From a virus, in IMG/VR virus record IMGVR_UViG_3300009180_000278, positions 1 to 20,077 of that record: 20,077 nucleotides of DNA; one strand, written 5' to 3'. A program made the translations under genes and the position numbers. This document shows, piece by piece, positions 1-17,496 of this stretch. Each line of letters opens with the position of its first letter. Within the stretch, counting starts at the first letter, position 1. A model generated the notes under the pieces. It did no database searches and was not told where the DNA came from. It saw only the letters and a program-made list of their open reading frames with translations.

Positions 1-1851
1 CCTTGAGTACCTTGAAGTCCTTGAGTACCCTGGGATCCTTGAAGACTTTGAGTACCTTGTGTTCCCTGAAGACCTTGAGTGCCTTGAGTACCTTGAAGAC
101 CTTGAGTACCCTGGGATCCTTGAAGACTTTGAGTACCTTGAGCTCCCTGAAGTCCTTGAAAACCTTGTGAACCTTGGGATCCTTGAAGACTTTGAGTACC
201 TTGAATACCCTGAGTTCCCTGAAGACCTTGAAGTCCTTGTGAACCTTGGGATCCTTGAAGACTTTGAGTACCTTGAGTTCCCTGAAGTCCTTGAGTACCT
301 TGTCTTCCCTGAAGACCTTGAGTACCCTGGGATCCTTGAAGACTTTGAGTACCTTGAGTTCCCTGAAGACCTTGAGTTCCCTGAATTCCTTGATCTCCTT
401 GAAGTCCTTGACCTCCTCCCCCCTGAAGACCTTGAAGTCCTTGAGTACCTTGAGTACCTTGAAGTCCTTGAAGACCGCCACCTTGAAGTCCTTGAAGACC
501 TTGAGTACCTTGTGTTCCCTGAAGACCTTGAGTACCTTGTCTTCCCTGAAGACCTTGAAGTCCTTGAGTACCCTGGGATCCTTGAAGACTTTGAGTTCCC
601 TGAATTCCTTGATCTCCTTGAAGTCCTTGACCTGGACCACCTTGAAGTCCTTGAAGTCCTTGTGTACCTTGAGAACCTTGATTACCCTGCAATCCTTGAG
701 TACCTTGGGATCCTTGAAGACTTTGAGTACCTTGAGTACCTTGTCTTCCTTGAAGTCCTTGTCTTCCTTGAGTACCTTGAGTTCCTTGAAGACCTTGAGT
801 TCCCTGAAGACCTTGAGTTCCCTGAATTCCTTGATCTCCTTGAAGTCCTTGAAGGCCACCACCCTGTAAACCTTGAAGTCCTTGAGTACCTTGAGATCCT
901 TGAAGTCCACCACCTTGAATTCCTTGAAGTCCTTGAAGTCCTTGAGTACCTTGAGTACCTTGAAGACCTTGAAGACCGCCACCTTGAAGTCCTTGAAGTC
1001 CTTGAGTACCTTGAATTCCCTGAAGTCCTTGAGCACCTTGTCTTCCTTGAAGACCTTGAGTTCCTTGAGTACCCTGAAGACCTTGTGTTCCCTGAGTACC
1101 CTGAAGACCTTGTGTTCCTTGAGTACCTTGAAGTCCTTGAAAACCTTGAGTACCTTGTCTTCCTTGAAGACCTTGAGTACCTTGAAGTCCTTGAGTACCT
1201 TGGGATCCTTGAAGACTTTGAGTACCTTGTGTTCCCTGAAGACCTTGAGCACCTTGTGAACCTTGGGATCCTTGAAGACTTTGAGTACCTTGAGTTCCCT
1301 GAAGACCTTGAGTTCCTTGAGTACCTTGGGATCCTTGAAGACTTTGAGTACCCTGGGATCCTTGTATTCCCTGAAGTCCTTGAGTACCTTGGGATCCTTG
1401 AAGACCTTGAAGACCGCCACCTTGAAGTCCTTGAAGTCCTTGAAGTCCTTGAGTACCTTGGGATCCTTGAAGACTTTGAGTGCCTTGAATTCCCTGAAGA
1501 CCTTGAGTACCCTGGGATCCTTGAAGACTTTGAGTACCTTGAGTTCCCTGAAGACCTTGAGTACCTTGTCTTCCCTGAAGTCCTTGAGTACCTTGGGATC
1601 CTTGAAGACTTTGAGTACCTTGAGTTCCCTGAAGACCTTGAGTACCTTGAGTACCTTGAAGTCCTTGAGTACCTTGAGTTCCTTGTAGACCTTGTGTTCC
1701 CTGAGTACCTTGAAGTCCTTGAAAACCTTGAGTACCTTGTCTTCCTTGAAGACCTTGAGTTCCCTGAATTCCTTGATCTCCTTGAAGTCCTTGACCTCCT
1801 CCCCCCTGAAGACCTTGAAGTCCTTGAGTACCCTGGGATCCTTGAGGTCCT
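1..1851 (-). repeat. Long collagen-like Gly-X-Y repeat block (about 9-nt unit)
   Basis: The DNA is a continuous array of 9-nt variants. On the plus strand these read CCTTGAGTA, CCTTGAAGT, CCTTGAAGA, CCCTGGGAT and similar. Read on the minus strand they give about 205 Gly-X-Y triplets, mostly GTQ, GLQ and GSQ. Larger higher-order units recur, such as GTQSLQGSQG, in which Ser (AGT) occupies a Gly (GGT) position. Gly-rich breaks that shift the triplet register by a residue occur at GGG, GGGG and GGPGQ (for example near 410-425, 470-485, 630-645 and 855-865). The block continues past position 1. Because the unit is a multiple of three, copy-number change keeps the frame. Confidence 0.93.
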
Positions 1852-3371
1852 CGAATAAGACCAACATCTACCCAATTAGTACCACTATAAACCCACAAAC
1901 GACCACTATCATCTGCCAAGACACCATTTCCCGCTGATGCTGGATACCAAGGATAAATTGTATCATTGACCGTTAATGTAGTATGAGGAGAAGATGTTGT
2001 AACTGAGGGAACACTGCCAACAATTGTAACTGATGTACCATCTTTTCCTACTAATCCTTGAATACTAGATCCTTGAGTTCCCTGAGTACCTTGTGATCCT
2101 TGAAGACTTTGAGTACCTTGTGTTCCCTGAAGACCTTGAGTACCTTGGGATCCTTGAAGACTTTGAGTACCTTGAATTCCCTGATTACCTTGAAGTCCTT
2201 GAGTACCCTGAGTACCTTGTGATCCCTGAAGACTTTGAGTACCTTGTGTTCCCTGAAGACCTTGAGTTCCCTGTGAACCTTGAAGACTTTGAGTACCTTG
2301 AGTTCCCTGAAGACCTTGAGTACCTTGAGTACCTTGAGTACCTTGGAGTCCTTGAGTACCTTGTGTTCCTTGAGTACCCTGAAGTCCTTGAGTACCCTGA
2401 GTACCCTGAAGTCCTTGAGTTCCCTGAAGTCCTTGAGTACCTTGAGTACCCTGAAGACTTTGAGTACCTTGTGTTCCTTGAAGACCTTGAGTACCTTGTG
2501 TTCCCTGAAGTCCTTGAGATCCTTGAGTACCTTGTGAACCTTGAAGACTTTGAGTACCTTGAGTACCCTGAGTACCTTGAAGTCCTTGAGTACCTTGGGA
2601 TCCTTGAATACCTTGATCTCCTTGAGTACCTTGAAGTCCTTGAGAACCTTGTGTTCCTTGAAGACCTTGAGTACCTTGAATACCTTGATCTCCTTGAGTA
2701 CCTTGAAGTCCTTGAGAACCTTGGGTTCCTTGAGGTCCTTGAATACCTTGAGTTCCCTGCAATCCTTGAGTACCTTGAGTACCTTGAGTACCCTGAACAC
2801 CTTGAACATAATCTGACCAAATAACTCCAGAACCAGTAGAAATTAAGACTGATTTAGCTACACCTACTTGATTTAAAGAATCCCTAAATTCTCCAGTAAT
2901 TCTAAATGAACCTTGAATATGTAAACTTTCGGTCGGTAATGAAGTTCCAATTCCAACTCTATTTGTTGCATCATCATAATATAATTGAGAAGCTCCAGTA
3001 AATTCTCCAGAATTATTAAAAATAACTTGATTATCATTTCCTGGAGCAAAAACTGTAATTTTTGCGGTGCTTCCTTCACCAGTTACAGTAACAGCAGCTC
3101 CAACAAATTTTAATTTAGAAAAACTATTACCTACGCCTACAAGATTGTTTTCGTCTTGAACATATATTCCAGGTTCTATCCAATACCTATCATATACTGT
3201 TCCATTATTAATTGTTACTAAAGAATAATATATTGATGATCCAGGTACTATCTTTTCTCCAGGATATCCAAGATTAGGTTCTGCTTGCTCTAATGCAAGA
3301 TACCTATTACGAGTTGTACTAAGTCCTAGAAAGGGAATTACCTTCTTTTTTCCACTTATATACCTTGTCAT
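1..3371 (-). CDS. Collagen-like tail fibre / virion adhesin, 3' end beyond window
   Basis: I found this by reading the minus strand from the ATG at 3371. The frame stays open to the left edge, giving about 1123 residues with no stop. It starts MTRYISGKKKVIPFLGLSTT. Residues 1 to about 185 are a non-repetitive head that includes a VGIGTSLPTESLHIQG fibre module. Gly-X-Y repeats follow (GTQ, GLQ, GSQ, GIQ, GDQ) from 2812 down to about 2056. A globular insert of about 65 residues (about 2050-1855) contains GRLWVYSGTNWVDVG, and a second, longer Gly-X-Y block runs to the edge. Gly-X-Y tracts in phage virion proteins usually form collagen-like triple-helical stalks. I infer a trimeric tail fibre or fibre-like decoration contacting the host. 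TAA GAG ATG links it to the upstream gene, so it is the last visible gene of the leftward operon. Codon and base composition in the repeats differ strongly from the AT-rich neighbours. The C-terminal tip, which would define receptor binding, is not visible. Confidence 0.88.
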   Translation of the reverse strand, partial: MTRYISGKKKVIPFLGLSTTRNRYLALEQAEPNLGYPGEKIVPGSSIYYSLVTINNGTVYDRYWIEPGIYVQDENNLVGVGNSFSKLKFVGAAVTVTGEGSTAKITVFAPGNDNQVIFNNSGEFTGASQLYYDDATNRVGIGTSLPTESLHIQGSFRITGEFRDSLNQVGVAKSVLISTGSGVIWSDYVQGVQGTQGTQGTQGLQGTQGIQGPQGTQGSQGLQGTQGDQGIQGTQGLQGTQGSQGLQGTQGDQGIQGSQGTQGLQGTQGTQGTQSLQGSQGTQGSQGLQGTQGTQGLQGTQGTQSLQGTQGTQGLQGTQGLQGTQGTQGLQGTQGTQGTQGLQGTQGTQGTQGLQGTQGTQSLQGSQGTQGLQGTQGTQSLQGSQGTQGTQGLQGNQGIQGTQSLQGSQGTQGLQGTQGTQSLQGSQGTQGTQGSSIQGLVGKDGTSVTIVGSVPSVTTSSPHTTLTVNDTIYPWYPASAGNGVLADDSGRLWVYSGTNWVDVGLIRGPQGSQGTQGLQGLQGGGGQGLQGDQGIQGTQGLQGRQGTQGFQGLQGTQGTQGLQGTQGTQGLQGTQGTQGLQGTQGTQSLQGSQGTQGLQGRQGTQGLQGTQGTQSLQGSQGTQGLQGIQGTQSLQGSQGTQGLQGLQGLQGGGLQGLQGSQGTQGLQGIQGSQGTQSLQGSQGTQGTQGLQGTQGTQSLQGSQGSQGAQGLQGTQGTQSLQGSQGTQGLQGTQGLQGRQGTQGFQGLQGTQGTQGLQGTQGTQGLQGTQGTQGLQGRQGAQGLQGIQGTQGLQGLQGGGLQGLQGTQGTQGLQGLQGIQGGGLQGSQGTQGLQGLQGGGLQGLQGDQGIQGTQGLQGTQGLQGTQGTQGRQGLQGRQGTQGTQSLQGSQGTQGLQGNQGSQGTQGLQGLQGGPGQGLQGDQGIQGTQSLQGSQGTQGLQGLQGRQGTQGLQGTQGTQGLQGLQGGGLQGLQGTQGTQGLQGLQGGGGQGLQGDQGIQGTQGLQGTQGTQSLQGSQGTQGLQGRQGTQGLQGTQGTQSLQGSQGSQGLQGLQGTQGIQGTQSLQGSQGSQGFQGLQGAQGTQSLQGSQGTQGLQGTQGTQGLQGTQGTQSLQGSQGTQGLQGTQ
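2051..2812 (-). repeat. First collagen-like Gly-X-Y repeat block
   Basis: About 84 Gly-X-Y triplets built from the same 9-nt units as the longer block. It begins after the head sequence IWSDYVQG and ends at GSSIQGLVGKDG, where the globular insert starts. GTQSLQG-type units with Ser at a Gly position occur about six times here. The blocks share units, which suggests they arose by duplication of a common array. Confidence 0.92.
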
Positions 3372-10735: not shown

Positions 10736-12081
10736 TTATCGTTTGTCCCATGTGCTCCAAAGGTATCTCTAATTAACTTCATTGAAGTATACGATGCATC
10801 AGTATCAAAATGATGACATAGTTCTTTTATCATATATAGACCACTTTGTTCCTTATCATATTCTTCACTATTTCCTTTTGAGATTTTTGGAAATTTGCAT
10901 TCAATAATATCACCCGCCTTTAAATTGGTATTTGATGGTACAACTATACTTAAAGTTTGAGTAAAAAGCATATTGTATCTCATGATCGCCTGAGATTGAT
11001 ATTTAAATGGATCGGAGTTTACATCAGTGGATACATCCTTTTCCATTGTTCCAATGTCTAATACTTGAGTTAAATATCTGGTTGGTATGTGTCCGAGATC
11101 AATATTTGAACTATTTGAAATTTTTGGCAATTCAAGTTTCTGTCCAAGATTTTTTACACCACTTACATAATCATCAGTCGTAAATAATCCTTTTTGAGGA
11201 TCGGTGAATTCAAATGTTAGTGGATTATAAAACATACGATAACTTGCATAAGAACCAAGTCTTAATTTTTCAAGTAAATTCTGATTTCTTTCTGTTTTAT
11301 AATTAAGAATATTAAAATCATTATCTCTTTCAATTCCAGATTGATTAACCTGAGTATAGGTGTATGTTGGAACCTTATCTGGTTTTTGTGAGATTAAACT
11401 ATCAATAGATCTGAACTGAAATCCTTCCTTTGTTTGATAAAATACAAATCCTGCTGTAGCATCTCCAGAAATTTCTGCAGGAACACCTTTAGATGCTAAC
11501 CATACCAAAATTGTAAATGGTTTTCTTAAATTACCAATGAATCCATATTTGTTCTGAGTCTTATCAATTTTACCAATCTTTTCAGTCTTTAGATAATTTT
11601 TAAGAATATCTGTTACCGAAGCATCAATTGTTGAACTTGTTTTATATTTTTTTCCAACTCTTGAAGTTTCGTTAGTAATTGCTTCTCTGGAAGTTAAATT
11701 CAAAAGAAATGTTTCCCTTTGAGATTCTGTTACAATATCAGTAATACTTGAAACATATAAGTAATCCTTTTCATTTGTTGCAAAATCTAATCCAGGATTC
11801 TTATTAGAATTTCCTGTAATTTTTAATGAAACTCTTTCACCACCACGAAGAGGAAGACCATTATAAATTGATTGCTTTTCTCCATCAGGATTTCCTTCCT
11901 TATCTGGCGCCTGAATAGCATCTCCAGTATTAACTATTCTAATTTTTGCAGTAATTGTTGGTGAAAAAATATCTTCATAATAATCAATAGATACCGCACC
12001 CTGTCTAATATCAGCAGTTCTTTTTTGATCGTTCGATTCTATAGTCAATTCTTCATAAACTGACTTATTAATTGCTGCCAT
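10732..12081 (-). CDS. Baseplate hub subunit, gp27-like
   Basis: This is a 449-aa protein, against 391 aa for T4 gp27. It reads as a hub protein: an N-terminal beta domain (AAINKSVYEELTIESNDQKRTADIRQGAVSIDYYEDIFSPTI), then a tube-like segment with LNLTSREAITNETSRVGKKY and TDILKNYLKTEKIG. Later come ILVWLASKG and a C-terminal domain with NTNLKAGDIIECKFPKI and GLYMIKELCHHFD; the last part is typical of gp27/gpD hub proteins, where the second tube domain ends. It starts inside a TAATG overlap with the upstream hydrolase and ends in an ATGA overlap with gp5, so translation is probably coupled. In T4, gp27 forms the trimeric torus that holds gp5, and the adjacency here fits that partnership. I made the call from architecture and neighbours and ran no alignment. 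Confidence 0.72.
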   Translation of the reverse strand: MAAINKSVYEELTIESNDQKRTADIRQGAVSIDYYEDIFSPTITAKIRIVNTGDAIQAPDKEGNPDGEKQSIYNGLPLRGGERVSLKITGNSNKNPGLDFATNEKDYLYVSSITDIVTESQRETFLLNLTSREAITNETSRVGKKYKTSSTIDASVTDILKNYLKTEKIGKIDKTQNKYGFIGNLRKPFTILVWLASKGVPAEISGDATAGFVFYQTKEGFQFRSIDSLISQKPDKVPTYTYTQVNQSGIERDNDFNILNYKTERNQNLLEKLRLGSYASYRMFYNPLTFEFTDPQKGLFTTDDYVSGVKNLGQKLELPKISNSSNIDLGHIPTRYLTQVLDIGTMEKDVSTDVNSDPFKYQSQAIMRYNMLFTQTLSIVVPSNTNLKAGDIIECKFPKISKGNSEEYDKEQSGLYMIKELCHHFDTDASYTSMKLIRDTFGAHGTNDK

Positions 12082-13922
12082 TAGGTATACGCTAGCTCTA
12101 GAAGTATTTGATTCTTAATAAGACTATTTAACGAACTTTCAGTGGGAATCATTTGTGGTTGTGATCCGCCACCTGCAGAAACTTGTTGAGGTGCAGGTGG
12201 TGGTGAAGGATTATCTGCAATTACAATTTGTTGTCCCTTTTTATTTTGTGCTACTGAAGGAACATTTTGACCTGGTGAAGTTGTTGATGAGACTTGTGCT
12301 TGCAATGGTTTTACTCCACCACCCCTATATTCAAAATGAAATGGATCTCCAGATATTTTAGCATAATACCAACCATATTTTGGTCCATTTTTCACCATCC
12401 AATTATATGCAGGAGTATTTGGTTCGAGATCAAGTGCCAATCCTACACCATGTCTAGAATAACCAGGAGTTGCTTTAACGGAACCTTTTACATTTTCTTG
12501 ATGTTTATAACTTCTATATGCGCTATTAATTGGAATATCTTTTCCATATGCTTGTTGTGCTGCTAAAAATGCCTTTCCTGCAGTTGGATTTAACATCGCA
12601 TTATTTCCGTACCAATCTTGATAATCGGCAGGATATGATAATGATTTTATTTTGATCAAATCCGATGAAGTTAAATATCCATTTCCTTTACCTGATTGTG
12701 GTTTTGAAGGTGCTGGTGCTTTATTAGTAATTGCAGGTGCTGGACCAGTTCTTGGTTTTTTGGGATCTATACCTTGCCTTTTAATAATATTAATTATATC
12801 TGTAGAATAAGTAGGAGATGTTGCATATACTCCATGACTAGTCATATTTGTTCCAGGAATTTTTGCTCCTGTTGGTAAACTCATATTTTGTGCTGCTTCT
12901 TCTGGAGTTTTAGCATTTCCATACTTATAATCCCATCTCTTAACTTTAGCTCTTACTCCCTCTTCAGGAGTTTCATAATCCCTAAATTTTGCTTTTACTC
13001 TCACATTTTTACCATTAATATTCTCAGTTGTCCAAAGCCAAGTGCCAGGTTCATTTGCTGACGCTTTTTGTCCAAAAAAATTATTTTTTCCACTCGGACT
13101 TTTTCCCCATCCACTTTCTATTGCCCATTGAGTTGCAGTAACTTCTGGAAATCGATCTCCCTCTTTCCTTGCAGCCTCATAAACTTTTGCCCAACCAGGA
13201 TCTGCACCTTTTGGAGCCGGTGGTGCTGTTCCTCCCCCACTTTCACCAGTAGTAGTGGTAGTATCTTGAGTATAATCAGTATTTAATGGTGGAACTTCTT
13301 TTTCTTCAGGACCTTGACCAAGAGGAGTTGTAAGTAACTCAAATCCCCTCATAAATTCATCATGCATAGAATCCATATTTGCACTCAAATCATTCATTGC
13401 ATTTTGAACTCTTTTTGATTGATCAGTGAAATCAAATTGAGTAATATCCAGATATACGGCAGAAAGAAGTTGCCCAAAATTTATAAATGTATTTCTAATA
13501 TTTCCCATAAACTCAGTTAATATTCCATATAGTGATCTAATTCTAGTAATCAAATTTTCAATTGCCGTCATAATTGTTGGCAAATTATAAAGCAACCAAC
13601 CAAGTAAAAGACTAGATGCAAAATCTAATAATCTGCCAAGAAATCCTTTTGTACTATCAGAAATAACTTTTCCAGTTCTTTTAAATGCTCCACTAATACC
13701 AGAAGCTTCAATTATACTTTCTTGGTCTTTTCTTTTAACTGCCTCTTCTCTCATCGTACTAAGCATTTTATTTCTAGCAATCGATTCTCTTTTTATTCTT
13801 GTTTTATTCAGAGAAACGGTTTTTATATTATCTACAGATTTTTTTAACTGCCCCATTCCAGTATTAAGGGATTTTATTCCACTTGACACTTTATCTAAAT
13901 TAATTGAGGATGTAATTGCCAT
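12081..13922 (-). CDS. Tail-associated peptidoglycan hydrolase: glucosaminidase plus M15 peptidase
   Basis: This 613-aa protein has four parts. Residues 1-180 are helical, with a hydrophobic stretch (LLDFASSLLLGWLLYNLPTI), and resemble the tape-measure-like neighbour. Residues about 190-240 are a Thr/Gly/Pro linker. Residues about 240-382 look like a glucosaminidase (FlgJ/LytG type): ATQWAIESGWGKS with predicted catalytic Glu269, NNFFGQKA, FRDYETPEEGVR and YATSPTYSTDIINIIK. Residues about 415-540 are an M15/VanY-type zinc peptidase: INSAYRSYKHQ, SRHGVGLALDL (ligands His491 and Asp498) and DPFHFEY (Asp526 and His529). The spacing matches the known Ply500-type pattern H-x6-D ... D-x2-H. The protein could cleave both glycan strands and stem peptides during DNA entry. 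It lies between the tape-measure candidate (1-nt gap) and the gp27-like hub (1-nt overlap), so it is likely a virion component of the hub or tube lumen. Confidence 0.85.
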   Translation of the reverse strand: MAITSSINLDKVSSGIKSLNTGMGQLKKSVDNIKTVSLNKTRIKRESIARNKMLSTMREEAVKRKDQESIIEASGISGAFKRTGKVISDSTKGFLGRLLDFASSLLLGWLLYNLPTIMTAIENLITRIRSLYGILTEFMGNIRNTFINFGQLLSAVYLDITQFDFTDQSKRVQNAMNDLSANMDSMHDEFMRGFELLTTPLGQGPEEKEVPPLNTDYTQDTTTTTGESGGGTAPPAPKGADPGWAKVYEAARKEGDRFPEVTATQWAIESGWGKSPSGKNNFFGQKASANEPGTWLWTTENINGKNVRVKAKFRDYETPEEGVRAKVKRWDYKYGNAKTPEEAAQNMSLPTGAKIPGTNMTSHGVYATSPTYSTDIINIIKRQGIDPKKPRTGPAPAITNKAPAPSKPQSGKGNGYLTSSDLIKIKSLSYPADYQDWYGNNAMLNPTAGKAFLAAQQAYGKDIPINSAYRSYKHQENVKGSVKATPGYSRHGVGLALDLEPNTPAYNWMVKNGPKYGWYYAKISGDPFHFEYRGGGVKPLQAQVSSTTSPGQNVPSVAQNKKGQQIVIADNPSPPPAPQQVSAGGGSQPQMIPTESSLNSLIKNQILLELAYT

Positions 13923-13923
13923 A

Positions 13924-15708
13924 TTACATCACCACATTATAATTAATTTGTGAATATAATGTATAAAAATTATCAGGATTAGAAGAAGGAATGGCAGGAA
14001 CGTCACTTGCAGGCCCACTTTTCAATGGTTGTTGTGGCGGTGGATTAGAAGAACCAGAAGGGGCATAAATTATATTTGGTTTTGGTTCAGGTTCTGGCCC
14101 AATATTAAATGGTACAGTTTGCATCTTTGTTGTTTGTGCTGGAGTTATCTCTGGTATAGAAGGTTTTGAAGAAGTTTCTGCTGGTTTTGCTTTTGTAGAA
14201 ACTTTTGGTTGTTCTTTAGATGATTCGGCAGAAACTTTTGCAGGTTCTGGTTTTACAGTTCCTGCTGATTGTGGTACTGGTGCTGATTGTGGTACTGGTG
14301 CTGATTGTGGTACTGGTGCTGATGTAGTTGCTGGGGTTGGTGTTGATGTAGTTGCTGGGGTTGGTGTAGTTCCTTCTGATGATGGTGTTGGTGTTGATGT
14401 AGAAGTTGTTTCTGATGCTGATGTAGAACTTAGTGCTGGCGCAGAAGTTGCTGGTGTTGGTATTGGTGAAGGTTTATCGCCTTTAGGTGTTTCTGATGCT
14501 TTAATCTGCAAATTACTTGCAGGAGGAATCATAGAGGTTGTTGGGGCAGGTTTAGCAGCTTCTGGTTTTGGTGATTCAGATTTTTTAATTGAAGATGATG
14601 TAATTTTGTTTTGATTTTTTTTCTTTGCTTCTTCTAATTCTTTTTGTTTTTGCTTTAATAATTTAGGATCTGCACCAGTAAAATTTTTGCCCAATGCTTC
14701 TGCAATTTCATCAAAAGCAAATACTGTTCCTGCAGATACTCTGGCAAGTTTAAATACTCCACCGCCAGGAACAAAAGTCAAAGCCGCCAGTGCAGCATCA
14801 ACATTTTCACCATTTAAGAAATTAAATGCTCCACTAATTCCAGTAATAATCTTACCAATTCCTGATAAAAGTCCACCACCTCCCGATTTTGGTCCTGTAG
14901 GTTTTGGTCCTGCAGGAGGTGTTGGAGTTCTATTAGGTCTAAAGATACCATTAGCAGCATTACCAATACCAGTCATAACTGCCTGGAATGGTTTAATAAT
15001 TAATCCACCAACTACAAATTTTCCAATTTTTGCTGCAAGACCAATAATAGTAGTAATAATACGACCTATACCAAAATTAATAACACCAAATATGCCACCA
15101 GCAATTGCAAGTGTTTTAATTACAGAATTTTTAATATCATCAAGTTGCTTCTTATCACCATCTTGATATGCCTTGATTAACTTGATTCCTTGAAGAGTTA
15201 ACCATCCTCCAAGTAATGTCTCTATAAATGACATTACATTCTGGAATCCAAATGAAACCTTATTTCCAATACGATTTACTGGTTCTGATAAGGCATTTTG
15301 AATTTTAGTTTCTAAAAGACTTTCTTTTCCACCCCTTGCACCTGCTTCTGCTAATCTTTTTTCTTTCTCTTCTTCATAACGATTTTTTTGACTCTCAATA
15401 GCACTTTCACTTGTGATTATAGTTGCAACTGATTCTAAAGTTTGATCAACTTTACTTAATTGAAGTCTTACACTATCAATTTGATTAACAAAAGATTGTT
15501 GAAAATTTGCAAAAACTCCAACATTAGTAATATTATTTTTATTTAATTCATTAACTTGATTTTGTAATGCTACTATTGAAGATGAAAGTGATTGAAGTCT
15601 AGATTTTGTTTCAGGATCTGGTTTGTTTCCACCAAAAATACTTCCCGATACGGTACTTTCATTAATACCTTGAACCGAATTTGAAAGTGGCGATGGTAGA
15701 ACTGCCAT
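13924..15708 (-). CDS. Probable tail length tape-measure protein (gp29 position)
   Basis: This is a 594-aa protein, close to the 590 aa of T4 gp29. Residues about 30-150 are predicted coiled coil (SRLQSLSSSIVALQNQVNEL, QIDSVRLQLSKVDQTLESVA, KNRYEEEKEKRLAEAG). Residues about 165-265 are hydrophobic (FIETLLGGWLTLQGIKLI, TLAIAGGIFGVINFGIG, ITTIIGLAAKIGKFVVGGLI), as is common in tape measures that meet the membrane. Residues about 345-570 are rich in Pro, Ser, Thr, Ala and Lys, with APVPQS three times in tandem. It follows the gp26/gp51 chaperone-like pair, which is the usual place for a tape measure. The ATG overlaps the gp51-like stop (TAATG). The low-complexity tail reduces the helical length available for measuring a tube, so a hub-associated structural role is an alternative. 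Confidence 0.6.
   Translation of the reverse strand: MAVLPSPLSNSVQGINESTVSGSIFGGNKPDPETKSRLQSLSSSIVALQNQVNELNKNNITNVGVFANFQQSFVNQIDSVRLQLSKVDQTLESVATIITSESAIESQKNRYEEEKEKRLAEAGARGGKESLLETKIQNALSEPVNRIGNKVSFGFQNVMSFIETLLGGWLTLQGIKLIKAYQDGDKKQLDDIKNSVIKTLAIAGGIFGVINFGIGRIITTIIGLAAKIGKFVVGGLIIKPFQAVMTGIGNAANGIFRPNRTPTPPAGPKPTGPKSGGGGLLSGIGKIITGISGAFNFLNGENVDAALAALTFVPGGGVFKLARVSAGTVFAFDEIAEALGKNFTGADPKLLKQKQKELEEAKKKNQNKITSSSIKKSESPKPEAAKPAPTTSMIPPASNLQIKASETPKGDKPSPIPTPATSAPALSSTSASETTSTSTPTPSSEGTTPTPATTSTPTPATTSAPVPQSAPVPQSAPVPQSAGTVKPEPAKVSAESSKEQPKVSTKAKPAETSSKPSIPEITPAQTTKMQTVPFNIGPEPEPKPNIIYAPSGSSNPPPQQPLKSGPASDVPAIPSSNPDNFYTLYSQINYNVVM
14270..14400 (-). repeat. Short in-frame repeats in the Pro/Ser/Thr-rich tail
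   Basis: An 18-nt unit (ggtgctgattgtggtact on the plus strand) is repeated three times, encoding APVPQS x3. A 24-nt unit beginning gttgatgtagttgctggggt is repeated twice just after it, encoding repeats of ATTSTPTP type. All lengths are multiples of three, so the reading frame is kept. These lie in the flexible tail of the tape-measure candidate. Confidence 0.85.
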
Positions 15709-15881
15709 TAGGAGGATTGCTGATTTTTAAGATTTTCTTGTTCAATATATTGTTGCAAAAGTGTAATATAGATTTCTTTCTCCCAAGGAATCATATTATC
15801 AAGTTCTGTTAATGAATATTTATGGTGTTGCATCAGGGAAAAATTAGTCCGGAAGTATGACGCAAGATCATTATGCGCCAT
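15708..15881 (-). CDS. gp51-like small baseplate hub assembly protein (57 aa)
   Basis: A 57-aa ORF fills the gap between gp26 and the tape-measure candidate. It reads MAHNDLASYFRTNFSLMQHH, then KYSLTELDNMIPWEKEIYIT, and ends in a charged, Gln-rich helix. 'YSLTELDNMIPWE.E.Y' is like the small proteins found after gp26 in T4-like phages, and like the downstream domain of tail-assembly chaperone fusions. In T4 the gene after 26 is 51 (baseplate hub assembly), though T4 gp51 is much longer (249 aa). The ATG is 2 nt after the gp26 TAA, and the TAA overlaps the next ATG by 1 nt. No clear Shine-Dalgarno sequence precedes it, and the ATG lies within a stable hairpin. That favours expression as a -1 frameshift extension of gp26, alone or in addition to independent initiation. 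Confidence 0.78.
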   Translation of the reverse strand: MAHNDLASYFRTNFSLMQHHKYSLTELDNMIPWEKEIYITLLQQYIEQENLKNQQSS

Positions 15882-15896
15882 ACTTACACGAAAAAA
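15853..15896 (-). promoter_or_regulatory. Programmed -1 ribosomal frameshift signal (slippery heptamer plus hairpin)
   Basis: On the minus strand the last gp26 codons are GCT TTT TTC GTG TAA, containing T TTT TTC in the X XXY YYZ phase (15896-15890). After a 4-nt spacer (GTGT) comes a hairpin: 5' arm AAGTATGGCGCA (15885-15874), 9-nt loop (15873-15865), 3' arm TGCGTCATACTT (15864-15853). All 12 positions pair, one of them as G-U. If the lower A-T pairs open, the spacer rises to the usual 5-9 nt. Slipping back one base gives CGT GTA AGT ATG, exactly the frame of the 57-aa ORF. Everything stated here is visible in the sequence; activity is inferred. Confidence 0.8.
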
Positions 15897-16603
15897 GCAG
15901 GAAGTCCCTCCAATACAACTTCACTTTCAATACCAGTATTTGGATTTTTAATTGAAATATTATGTGAAAGTTTTGGCATTGTTTCAAAGAACTTCTCAAT
16001 TTGTTTGAATTGTTTTGAACTTAATTGCTCAACAAATTCTGAGAGTTCTTTTTTTGAACATTCACTTCCAATCCACGACTCTTCTTCAGAATAAACTTGA
16101 TCGATACATGCACAAATCAAATCAAAAGATTCATTGACACCAATTCCCTCTCCACTATTAAAATTATTTTTAATGAATTCTGCCATCGATGGATACTTCA
16201 TTCTCATAGTTAAAGTATCATCCAATTTAATATCTCTATTATGCCCATCCTGTTCTTGTACTTGAATTTCGTCCAAATTAATACTTACAGGAACTTTTGT
16301 TGTATTGTCATCTGGGCATGTAATTAATATGTCAACATCCTCACCAACAGATTTTCCGCGAATATTCAAGAACAAATATTCAATATCAAATGTGGCAAGA
16401 TCATCAATTTTAATTCCTTTACTTAAAATGCAGTTTGAAATTACTGTTTTAACTGCATTTGCAATTTGTTTACTATCCTCACTTTCCATTGCAATAATGA
16501 GGATCTTTTCTTCTTTAACTAAAAATGGGCGATATCTAATGTTCTTCTTTAGTGATGGAATTTCCAACTCATAAATTGGAGTCGCAATCTTTGGTAATGG
16601 CAT
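15884..16603 (-). CDS. gp26: Baseplate hub protein gp26
   Basis: This 239-aa protein opens MPLPKIATPIYELEIPSLKK, then NIRYRPFLVKEEKILIIAME and DSKQIANAVKTVISNCIL. This pattern is typical of the T4 gp26-type baseplate family. The middle has LNIRGKSVGEDVDILITCPD; the later part is helical (KELSEFVEQLSSKQFKQIEKFFETMP). T4 gp26 is 208 aa. In T4 it is needed for hub assembly. AGGT about 5 nt upstream of the ATG could serve as a ribosome binding site. A perfect late promoter sequence lies 27 nt upstream, so gp26 is probably the first gene of a separately promoted late transcript covering the hub and fibre genes. The 3' end carries the frameshift signal, ending in PAFFV. In phages with lambda-like tails the equivalent position is the tail assembly chaperone, so gp26 may have that role here. 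Confidence 0.88.
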   Translation of the reverse strand: MPLPKIATPIYELEIPSLKKNIRYRPFLVKEEKILIIAMESEDSKQIANAVKTVISNCILSKGIKIDDLATFDIEYLFLNIRGKSVGEDVDILITCPDDNTTKVPVSINLDEIQVQEQDGHNRDIKLDDTLTMRMKYPSMAEFIKNNFNSGEGIGVNESFDLICACIDQVYSEEESWIGSECSKKELSEFVEQLSSKQFKQIEKFFETMPKLSHNISIKNPNTGIESEVVLEGLPAFFV

Positions 16604-16629: not shown

Positions 16630-16637
16630 TATTTATA
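16630..16637 (-). promoter_or_regulatory. T4-type late promoter TATAAATA upstream of gp26
   Basis: The minus strand reads GCTATAAATAG, a perfect match to the T4 late promoter element TATAAATA. It ends 27 nt before the gp26 ATG. It contains the TAA stop codon of the upstream gp54-like gene, so promoter and stop share bases. The known late system recognises this element with a phage sigma factor (gp55) and the sliding clamp. Confidence 0.8.
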
Positions 16638-17496
16638 GCGTTCTAAACCATCCAGCATCATTTGGACTAGTATTATTAGAAACTGCCTTTGCATCTGGGC
16701 TAGGGTTGATAGGTCCACCAATTCCCCTAGGTCTTGGATCGTCTAGTCTTCCAGTACCTTGATTAAGATTTCTCCAAATCATTTCTTGTCTTCCAGTTGC
16801 AAGATTATTGGAATTATTTACCGATGTAGATGCTGATGTGGCTGCAGTTACATTTTGAGGGATTAAATTATTACCTCTCAAGTAAGAAATATCTACACTT
16901 CTAGTAGAACCACAAACATATCTTTCATAATTAAATGATGCTGTTACAGTTAATGTTTGAGAATCATTATATGCAATTGTTGGAGAGTACATTGAAATTG
17001 GAAATAATTTAAAAAAATTATATTCGATTTCGTTTTCATAATCCCTATCAAATTTTAAGATTTTAACAGTATCTGTTTTATAATCTTCAGGATACTTCAT
17101 TCTGAAAAAATATCCTTCATTTGTTAAATCTGCGTTAGATCCACTAGTAATAAATTCTATCCAGTGCTCCAAAAATTTAATCATCTTATATTCGCTATCA
17201 ACATAAAATGTTAGATCTATGTCAGTAAATACTCTACTATGAGCCATTTTTTCAGTGACTCCAGTAATATCACCAACAATGTCTGCAGTTCCTATAGTAC
17301 TACCTGGCAATGATGCAGAAGAACACAATAATCCAGCATTTTCGGCAACAAACGCCCAATCAACACCCCTAACATTCAAATGATCTCGAAGAGGGCGTGG
17401 TAATGCTCCGAAAGAAACTTGATAATGAGAGGTTTGTGCAAGATTACCAAAAAGTGATTTAATTTGCGTTATCTTGCGAGGGCGGGCAGTGGACAC
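16633..17496 (-). CDS. Tail-tube-fold protein, putative baseplate tube initiator (gp54-like)
   Basis: This is a 287-aa protein. The N-terminal 210 residues look like the tail-tube fold shared by gp19, gp48 and gp54: TSHYQVSFGALPRPLRDHLN, CSSASLPGSTIGTADIVGDI, AHSRVFTDIDLTFYVDSEYK, MIKFLEHWIEFI, and NFFKLFPISMYSPTIAY. The last is the usual 'P..i....y...' strand before a C-terminal beta strand (LTVTASFNYERYVCG). The tail (about 225-287) is Asn/Ser/Pro-rich and probably flexible. T4 gp54 is 320 aa and starts the tube above the hub; the position next to gp26, gp4 and gp48 fits. The start is GTG at 17496, with AAGAG 8 nt upstream. It diverges from gp4 across a 34-bp gap. Alternatives are a second tube protein or a gp48 paralogue. 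Confidence 0.6.
   Translation of the reverse strand: MSTARPRKITQIKSLFGNLAQTSHYQVSFGALPRPLRDHLNVRGVDWAFVAENAGLLCSSASLPGSTIGTADIVGDITGVTEKMAHSRVFTDIDLTFYVDSEYKMIKFLEHWIEFITSGSNADLTNEGYFFRMKYPEDYKTDTVKILKFDRDYENEIEYNFFKLFPISMYSPTIAYNDSQTLTVTASFNYERYVCGSTRSVDISYLRGNNLIPQNVTAATSASTSVNNSNNLATGRQEMIWRNLNQGTGRLDDPRPRGIGGPINPSPDAKAVSNNTSPNDAGWFRTL

Follow-up and report, generated by a model that had tools for sequence, protein, structure and literature searches.

A predicted −1 ribosomal frameshift joins gp26 to a gp51-like C-terminal domain in T4-like phages

The 3' end of the gp26-like gene in a 20,077-nucleotide stretch of DNA from a marine T4-like phage (hereafter the window) carries a slippery heptamer, T TTT TTC, in the zero-frame phase, followed by a hairpin and overlapped by an open −1 frame. 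We consider it very probable that this is a −1 programmed ribosomal frameshift, by which a single gene makes both a short and a long tail assembly chaperone. Most ribosomes would then end gp26 at its TAA and release the short chaperone, while a minority, slowed by the downstream hairpin and probably also by Shine-Dalgarno-like purines upstream, would slip on the heptamer into the −1 frame and make a 298-aa fusion with the C-terminal domain of gp51. On the model of gpG and gpGT in lambda, the domain common to both forms would coat the tape measure protein, and tail tube subunits would be recruited by the extended, less abundant form. We infer the slip itself, its ratio and the chaperone role from the features of the locus, which are listed here with their positions in the window.

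15884..16603, minus strand: gp26-like gene, 239 aa, predicted short-form tail assembly chaperone (TAC-N), with matches to PF12322, phrog_150 and T4 gp26
15907..15911, minus strand: Shine-Dalgarno-like GGAGG, probable upstream stimulator, 10 nt upstream of the heptamer, with a Glu codon bias
15890..15896, minus strand: slippery heptamer T TTT TTC in zero-frame phase, kept in 304/304 distinct junctions
15884..15886, minus strand: gp26 TAA stop, one codon past the heptamer, with equal spacing in 257/304 junctions
15853..15885, minus strand: putative stimulatory hairpin, 12 bp with a 9-nt loop and a conserved core of ~10 bp, from folding, synonymous shuffles and compensatory changes at 15876/15862
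15708..15890, minus strand: extension in the −1 frame, 60 aa and a stop codon, homologue of the T4 gp51 C-terminal domain, from phrog_634, hhalign and pN/pS
15879..15881, minus strand: first −1 frame ATG, probably not a start but a codon inside the fusion, with no Shine-Dalgarno and with startless relatives
13924..15708, minus strand: large ORF, 594 aa, in the tape-measure position, from its position and the ATG/stop overlap TAATG
16633..17496, minus strand: tail tube-like gene, upstream of gp26, PF23849 Phage_TTP_2 (E=2.1e-16) and phrog_45 (E=4.7e-38)

In profile searches the gp26-like protein matches PF12322 T4_baseplate (E=1.5e-72) and phrog_150 (E=1.2e-81), and blastp aligns it to T4 gp26 with E=1.2e-8, so that the short form is homologous to T4 gp26. 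The order of genes in the window, with the tube-like gene followed by gp26, the extension and the large ORF, fits a chaperone role. The predicted fusion (TAC-NC) consists of gp26 residues 1-238 and the 60-aa extension, 298 aa altogether, with the junction peptide ...AFFRVSMAHNDLASYFR. When a structure predicted from gp26 only (pLDDT 86.9) was compared with known folds, the HK97 tail assembly chaperone 2OB9 was the PDB match of highest probability (0.51-0.63), but with E>1, which makes it a lead only; a sequence search of the PDB gave no credible relative. A prediction from a mixed gp26/gp51 alignment had a pLDDT mostly below 57 in its middle part, and its fold matches were set aside.

The gp26 frame ends in GCT TTT TTC GTG TAA, with the heptamer (15896-15890) in codon phase; an earlier note, made from the window alone, had placed this heptamer, a 4-nt spacer and a 12-bp hairpin with a 9-nt loop at what prove to be the right coordinates on the minus strand. 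To follow the junction through relatives, we assembled several hundred loci from IMG/VR scans together with added isolate records, and took as distinct junctions the 304 in which the gp51 domain was detected by HMM. They derive mostly from metagenomic contigs that are mutually related, and all counts given for them are of distinct sequences, not of independent events. The check that the earlier note had proposed, on the persistence of heptamer and −1 continuity, gave a uniform answer: an in-phase TTTTTTN is found in 304 of 304 junctions (IMG/VR and isolates), its last base being C in 260, T in 23, A in 20 and G in 1, and the gp51 domain lies in the −1 frame in every one. As a control, an in-phase TTTTTTN occurs within the last 9 codons of 1 of 351 ORFs from the same loci. 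Throughout the first 118 distinct junctions the heptamer reads TTTTTTC and ends 3 nt 5' of the stop. In the full set of 304 the codon leading into the run varies (AGT, AAT, TCT, GCT, GAT, ACT, CAT) yet always ends in T. The recurrence of the heptamer is not due to chance. Two loci fall outside the pattern: in contig L052 (3001-3894) a 2-nt deletion within the heptamer puts gp26 and the gp51 domain into one frame, as a hard-wired fusion of natural origin or through a mistake in assembly, and in L151 the frame breaks earlier within gp26, perhaps through a sequencing error. Vibrio phage K353 (L420:3150-3400) has no heptamer and reads CTT TTC AAG TAA TGG with an overlapping ATG; it may make the long form in another way.

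About 10 nt 5' of the heptamer lies a purine-rich, GGAGG-like stretch, which the earlier note missed in calling the cassette complete, correct as it was on the heptamer, the hairpin and the −1 frame. Among 142 representatives, the Glu codon at this site is GAG in 87 and GAA in 21, compared with 732 GAG and 1709 GAA elsewhere in gp26 (p=4e-26), a GAG share of 87/108 against 30%, and the Gly codon next to it is preferentially GGG or GGA. The Shine-Dalgarno-like element is under selection, and it is probably an upstream stimulator of the frameshift.

On the other side of the heptamer, a 4-nt spacer, GTGT, leads into a stem that pairs 15885-15874 with 15864-15853 around a loop at 15873-15865. Since the outermost A-U pair is poorly conserved, the structure is better described as a core of ~10 bp preceded by a spacer of ~6 nt. 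The hairpin of the window folds at −16.9 kcal/mol (z −3.8), and 0 of 200 synonymous-codon randomisations fold equally well. When 45-nt windows are moved along the 142 representatives, the mean energy falls from about −6 to −10.4 kcal/mol precisely where the heptamer ends, with a shuffled counterpart of about −4.7 to −5.3 kcal/mol, and synonymous-codon randomisation of the −1 frame gives a mean of −5.1 against −10.7 observed (mean z −2.4). Taken individually, 89 of the 142 fold significantly better than their synonymous shuffles and 15 fold no better. Some lineages have a weak hairpin or, like L002, none at all. In S-H34 the corresponding place is taken by another hairpin. A second, weaker dip in folding energy lies ~95-145 nt past the heptamer (about 15745-15795 of the window, minus strand), and across relatives it reaches about −2.7 kcal/mol relative to shuffled sequence.

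Compensatory changes in the stem, which the earlier note had suggested looking for, are present, mostly at one pair. In an alignment of 118 sequences the 12-pair stem is 85% paired, as against 29-43% when it is slid, and it holds 49 double-change cells where 18.9 are expected, nearly all at the pair 15876/15862 (UA in 55, GC in 31 and AU in 16). On the gp26 tree the two sides of this pair need 21 and 20 changes and the pair as a unit needs 25, so most of the changes coincide; a tree-aware sign test, with about 3:0 and 4:0 supported independent pairs, was underpowered. One side of the pair is a third codon position and the other a second codon position, so that the amino acid seems to be influenced by the stem. 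Run over the entire alignment, RNAalifold returned only 3 consensus pairs, because several lineages have different hairpins or none, and was replaced by counting a named structure. Rfam contained no matching family.

The −1 frame is open from 5' of the heptamer down to 15708 and would give, after the shift, the 60-aa extension RVSMAHND...QQSS. The 57-aa ORF of the earlier note, rightly said to be continuous with this frame, is the part that begins at the first ATG. The extension matches phrog_634 (E=1e-26) as well as the C-terminal end of phrog_150, a hint that there may be fused forms among the phrog_150 members.

A different reading of the junction would be that ribosomes stop at the gp26 TAA and re-initiate at the ATG at 15881 by translational coupling, producing a free gp51, with the heptamer being incidental. 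In the window, as in many relatives, the ATG does lie 5 nt past the stop, and GenBank records annotate two genes. However, 74 of the 304 junctions have no ATG, GTG or TTG within the first 12 codons past the shift, and those codons are conserved as protein, encoding a block such as R-I-A-L-S-H-x-S-L-E-N-Y-Y; over the first 14 codons of the startless representatives, pN/pS is 0.30 in the −1 frame versus 1.25 and 1.42 in the other frames, and the −1 frame of this group is under purifying selection. Where an ATG is found near the gp26 stop, 0 of 74 representatives have a Shine-Dalgarno at usable spacing, and the ATG at 15881 in the window has none either, which bears out the earlier note's remark that the 57-aa ORF is without a clear ribosome site. 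With conserved extensions that have no start and ATGs that have no Shine-Dalgarno, separate initiation therefore cannot account for the whole family, and it would leave the invariant heptamer, its phase and the hairpin unexplained. We regard it as very improbable as the explanation of the junction, while it is possible as a minor extra in phages like that of the window.

Still less probable is transcriptional slippage at the T run, in which mRNAs with an altered number of U's would join the two frames: an invariant run of six or seven T's speaks for it, but six T's are short for polymerase slippage, the T's keep the X XXY YYZ phase in every case and usually have C next, and the hairpin and the Shine-Dalgarno-like element flank it at ribosomal spacing. 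We give almost no credence to a sequence or assembly error that split one gene, a reading to which the in-frame contig L052 lends some colour; it is refuted by the recurrence of the same-phase split in 304 distinct junctions and many isolates, among which L052 is an outlier that may itself be the error.

The device that we read as a −1 frameshift is present in isolates of Kyanoviridae, Emdodecavirus, Menderavirus and Pootjesviridae, in a Methylophilales phage, in Cr30, pf16 and RHph_I1_18, and also in three Straboviridae outside the T4 group, KVP40, CC2 and LPCS28. With KVP40 gp26 as the query, only 2 viral contigs were found. The extension runs without a start codon for 31 codons in CC2 and for 18 in LPCS28, and in the GenBank records of both Aeromonas phage CC2 (L423:3190-3358) and LPCS28 (L424:3175-3339) it is unannotated, appearing as an intergenic gap.

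In T4 and Aes012, gp26 and gp51 lie on opposite strands and no slippery run is found, T4 reading GAG TTC TTT GAG. T4 gp51 aligns by hhalign to gp26 over residues 6-174 (E=3.6e-10) and to the −1 extension over residues 204-247 (E=1e-8); separate gp26 and extension alignments were used for this comparison, a mixed alignment having lost the C-terminal part. Because T4 gp51 is homologous to gp26 in its N-terminal part, full-length T4 gp51 has its counterpart in the fusion, and the ORF that the earlier note called gp51-like corresponds to the C-terminal domain of T4 gp51 and not to the entire protein. T4 gp51, which is needed for tail assembly and is not in the final particle (PMC3004832), thus matches what a hard-wired counterpart of the long form would look like. 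The simplest reading is that the T4 group swapped frameshifting for a duplicated, fused gene, a direction of change that we infer from the sequences.

The 594-aa ORF begins at 15708 in a TAATG that overlaps the extension stop, has no Shine-Dalgarno, and found no tape-measure profile match in profile searches; in Cr30 and RHph_I1_18 the annotated tape measure gene lies one short gene further on. Among 133 representatives, the next long ORF starts mostly −5, +2 or −8 from the extension stop and is preceded by a Shine-Dalgarno-like site in only 40, an arrangement which suggests translational coupling. One could speculate, although we think it rather unlikely, that outside the T4 group most T4-like phages never have a free 'gp51', which would exist only as the frameshifted tail of gp26, and that translation of the tape-measure-position ORF, given its TAATG start without a Shine-Dalgarno of its own, may need shifted ribosomes; if true, the long chaperone and the tape measure would both be dosed by a single slip rate. 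The protein encoded next to this ORF (12081-13922, minus strand) has glucosaminidase and VanY-type peptidase domains, and both it and the 594-aa ORF are weakly similar to phrog_35029. A further ORF of at least 1123 aa (3-3371, minus strand), open at the window edge, consists mostly of QGTQGLQG-type collagen-like repeats and is probably a tail fibre.

Abundant marine phages have gp26 and gp51 among their core genes. We inspected the GenBank annotation of a sample of records, and those annotating both show two genes, one called 'baseplate hub' and the other 'hub assembly catalyst'; the fused protein is covered to at least 80% by 586 phage records. One frameshifted tail-chaperone gene in place of two would mean an annotation correction in hundreds of genomes, and the natural variants, with startless extensions, differing heptamers and hairpins and a possible natural fusion, offer material for experiments on the control of tail assembly by the ratio of short to long form.

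Vladimirov, Gautam and Davidson reportedly identified the T4-like tail chaperones (TAC-N and TAC-NC) in 2022 (Virology 566:9-15). Poly-T −1 slippery sequences in T4-like TAC-N genes are credited to that work in passages of PMC12846349, and passages of the PRFect paper credit to it that in some T4-like phages a short gene and a longer, fused one take the place of frameshifting (PMC10885494). As these passages place T4-like chaperones and poly-T signals in the 2022 study, the kind of device described here was already known; a 2016 statement had the chaperone frameshift widely conserved 'except T4' (PMC5009743). The earlier note's reading of the junction is supported, but the unification with the chaperone frameshift of other phages that it foresaw is, by the passages on the 2022 study, not new. 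The device of the window is the T4-family form of a tail-chaperone frameshift that other tailed phages are known to use; what is apparently added here is its breadth, the startless extensions, the upstream and downstream stimulators and the mapping onto T4 gp51, some of which may already be in the 2022 work.

T4 itself shares with the window phage a PF12322 gp26, and its gp51 is made of a gp26-like and an extension-like part; T4 and Aes012 encode the two forms in separate genes, whereas the window phage has one gene shared through a predicted frameshift. In the −1 frameshift of E. coli dnaX, a Shine-Dalgarno-like element ~10 nt upstream, a slippery heptamer and a downstream hairpin are combined, a three-part layout to which that of the window would be analogous, although dnaX is a cellular gene with an A-rich heptamer. 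The tail chaperones of Vandenendeviridae and Andersonviridae use a poly-T −1 frameshift (Adele, PMC12846349) and share with the present system, in the passages of that source, a conserved T-rich slippery site and an open −1 frame that annotation wrongly presents as a gene of its own; they differ in the motif, GTTTTT, and in belonging to other phage families, and those passages report no analysis of a downstream hairpin. In lambda, the tape measure is bound by gpG and gpGT, and it is the T domain that brings in tube subunits (PMC5009743), the G/GT frameshift having been described by Levin 1993 and by Xu, Hendrix and Duda 2004, as cited in PMC5009743. No sequence similarity to lambda and its relatives is shown, and the window system has T TTT TTN flanked by a strong hairpin and a Shine-Dalgarno-like element; alike in both would be the −1 shift near the end of the chaperone gene, its place between the tail tube and tape-measure positions, and a short form accompanied by a minor extended one.
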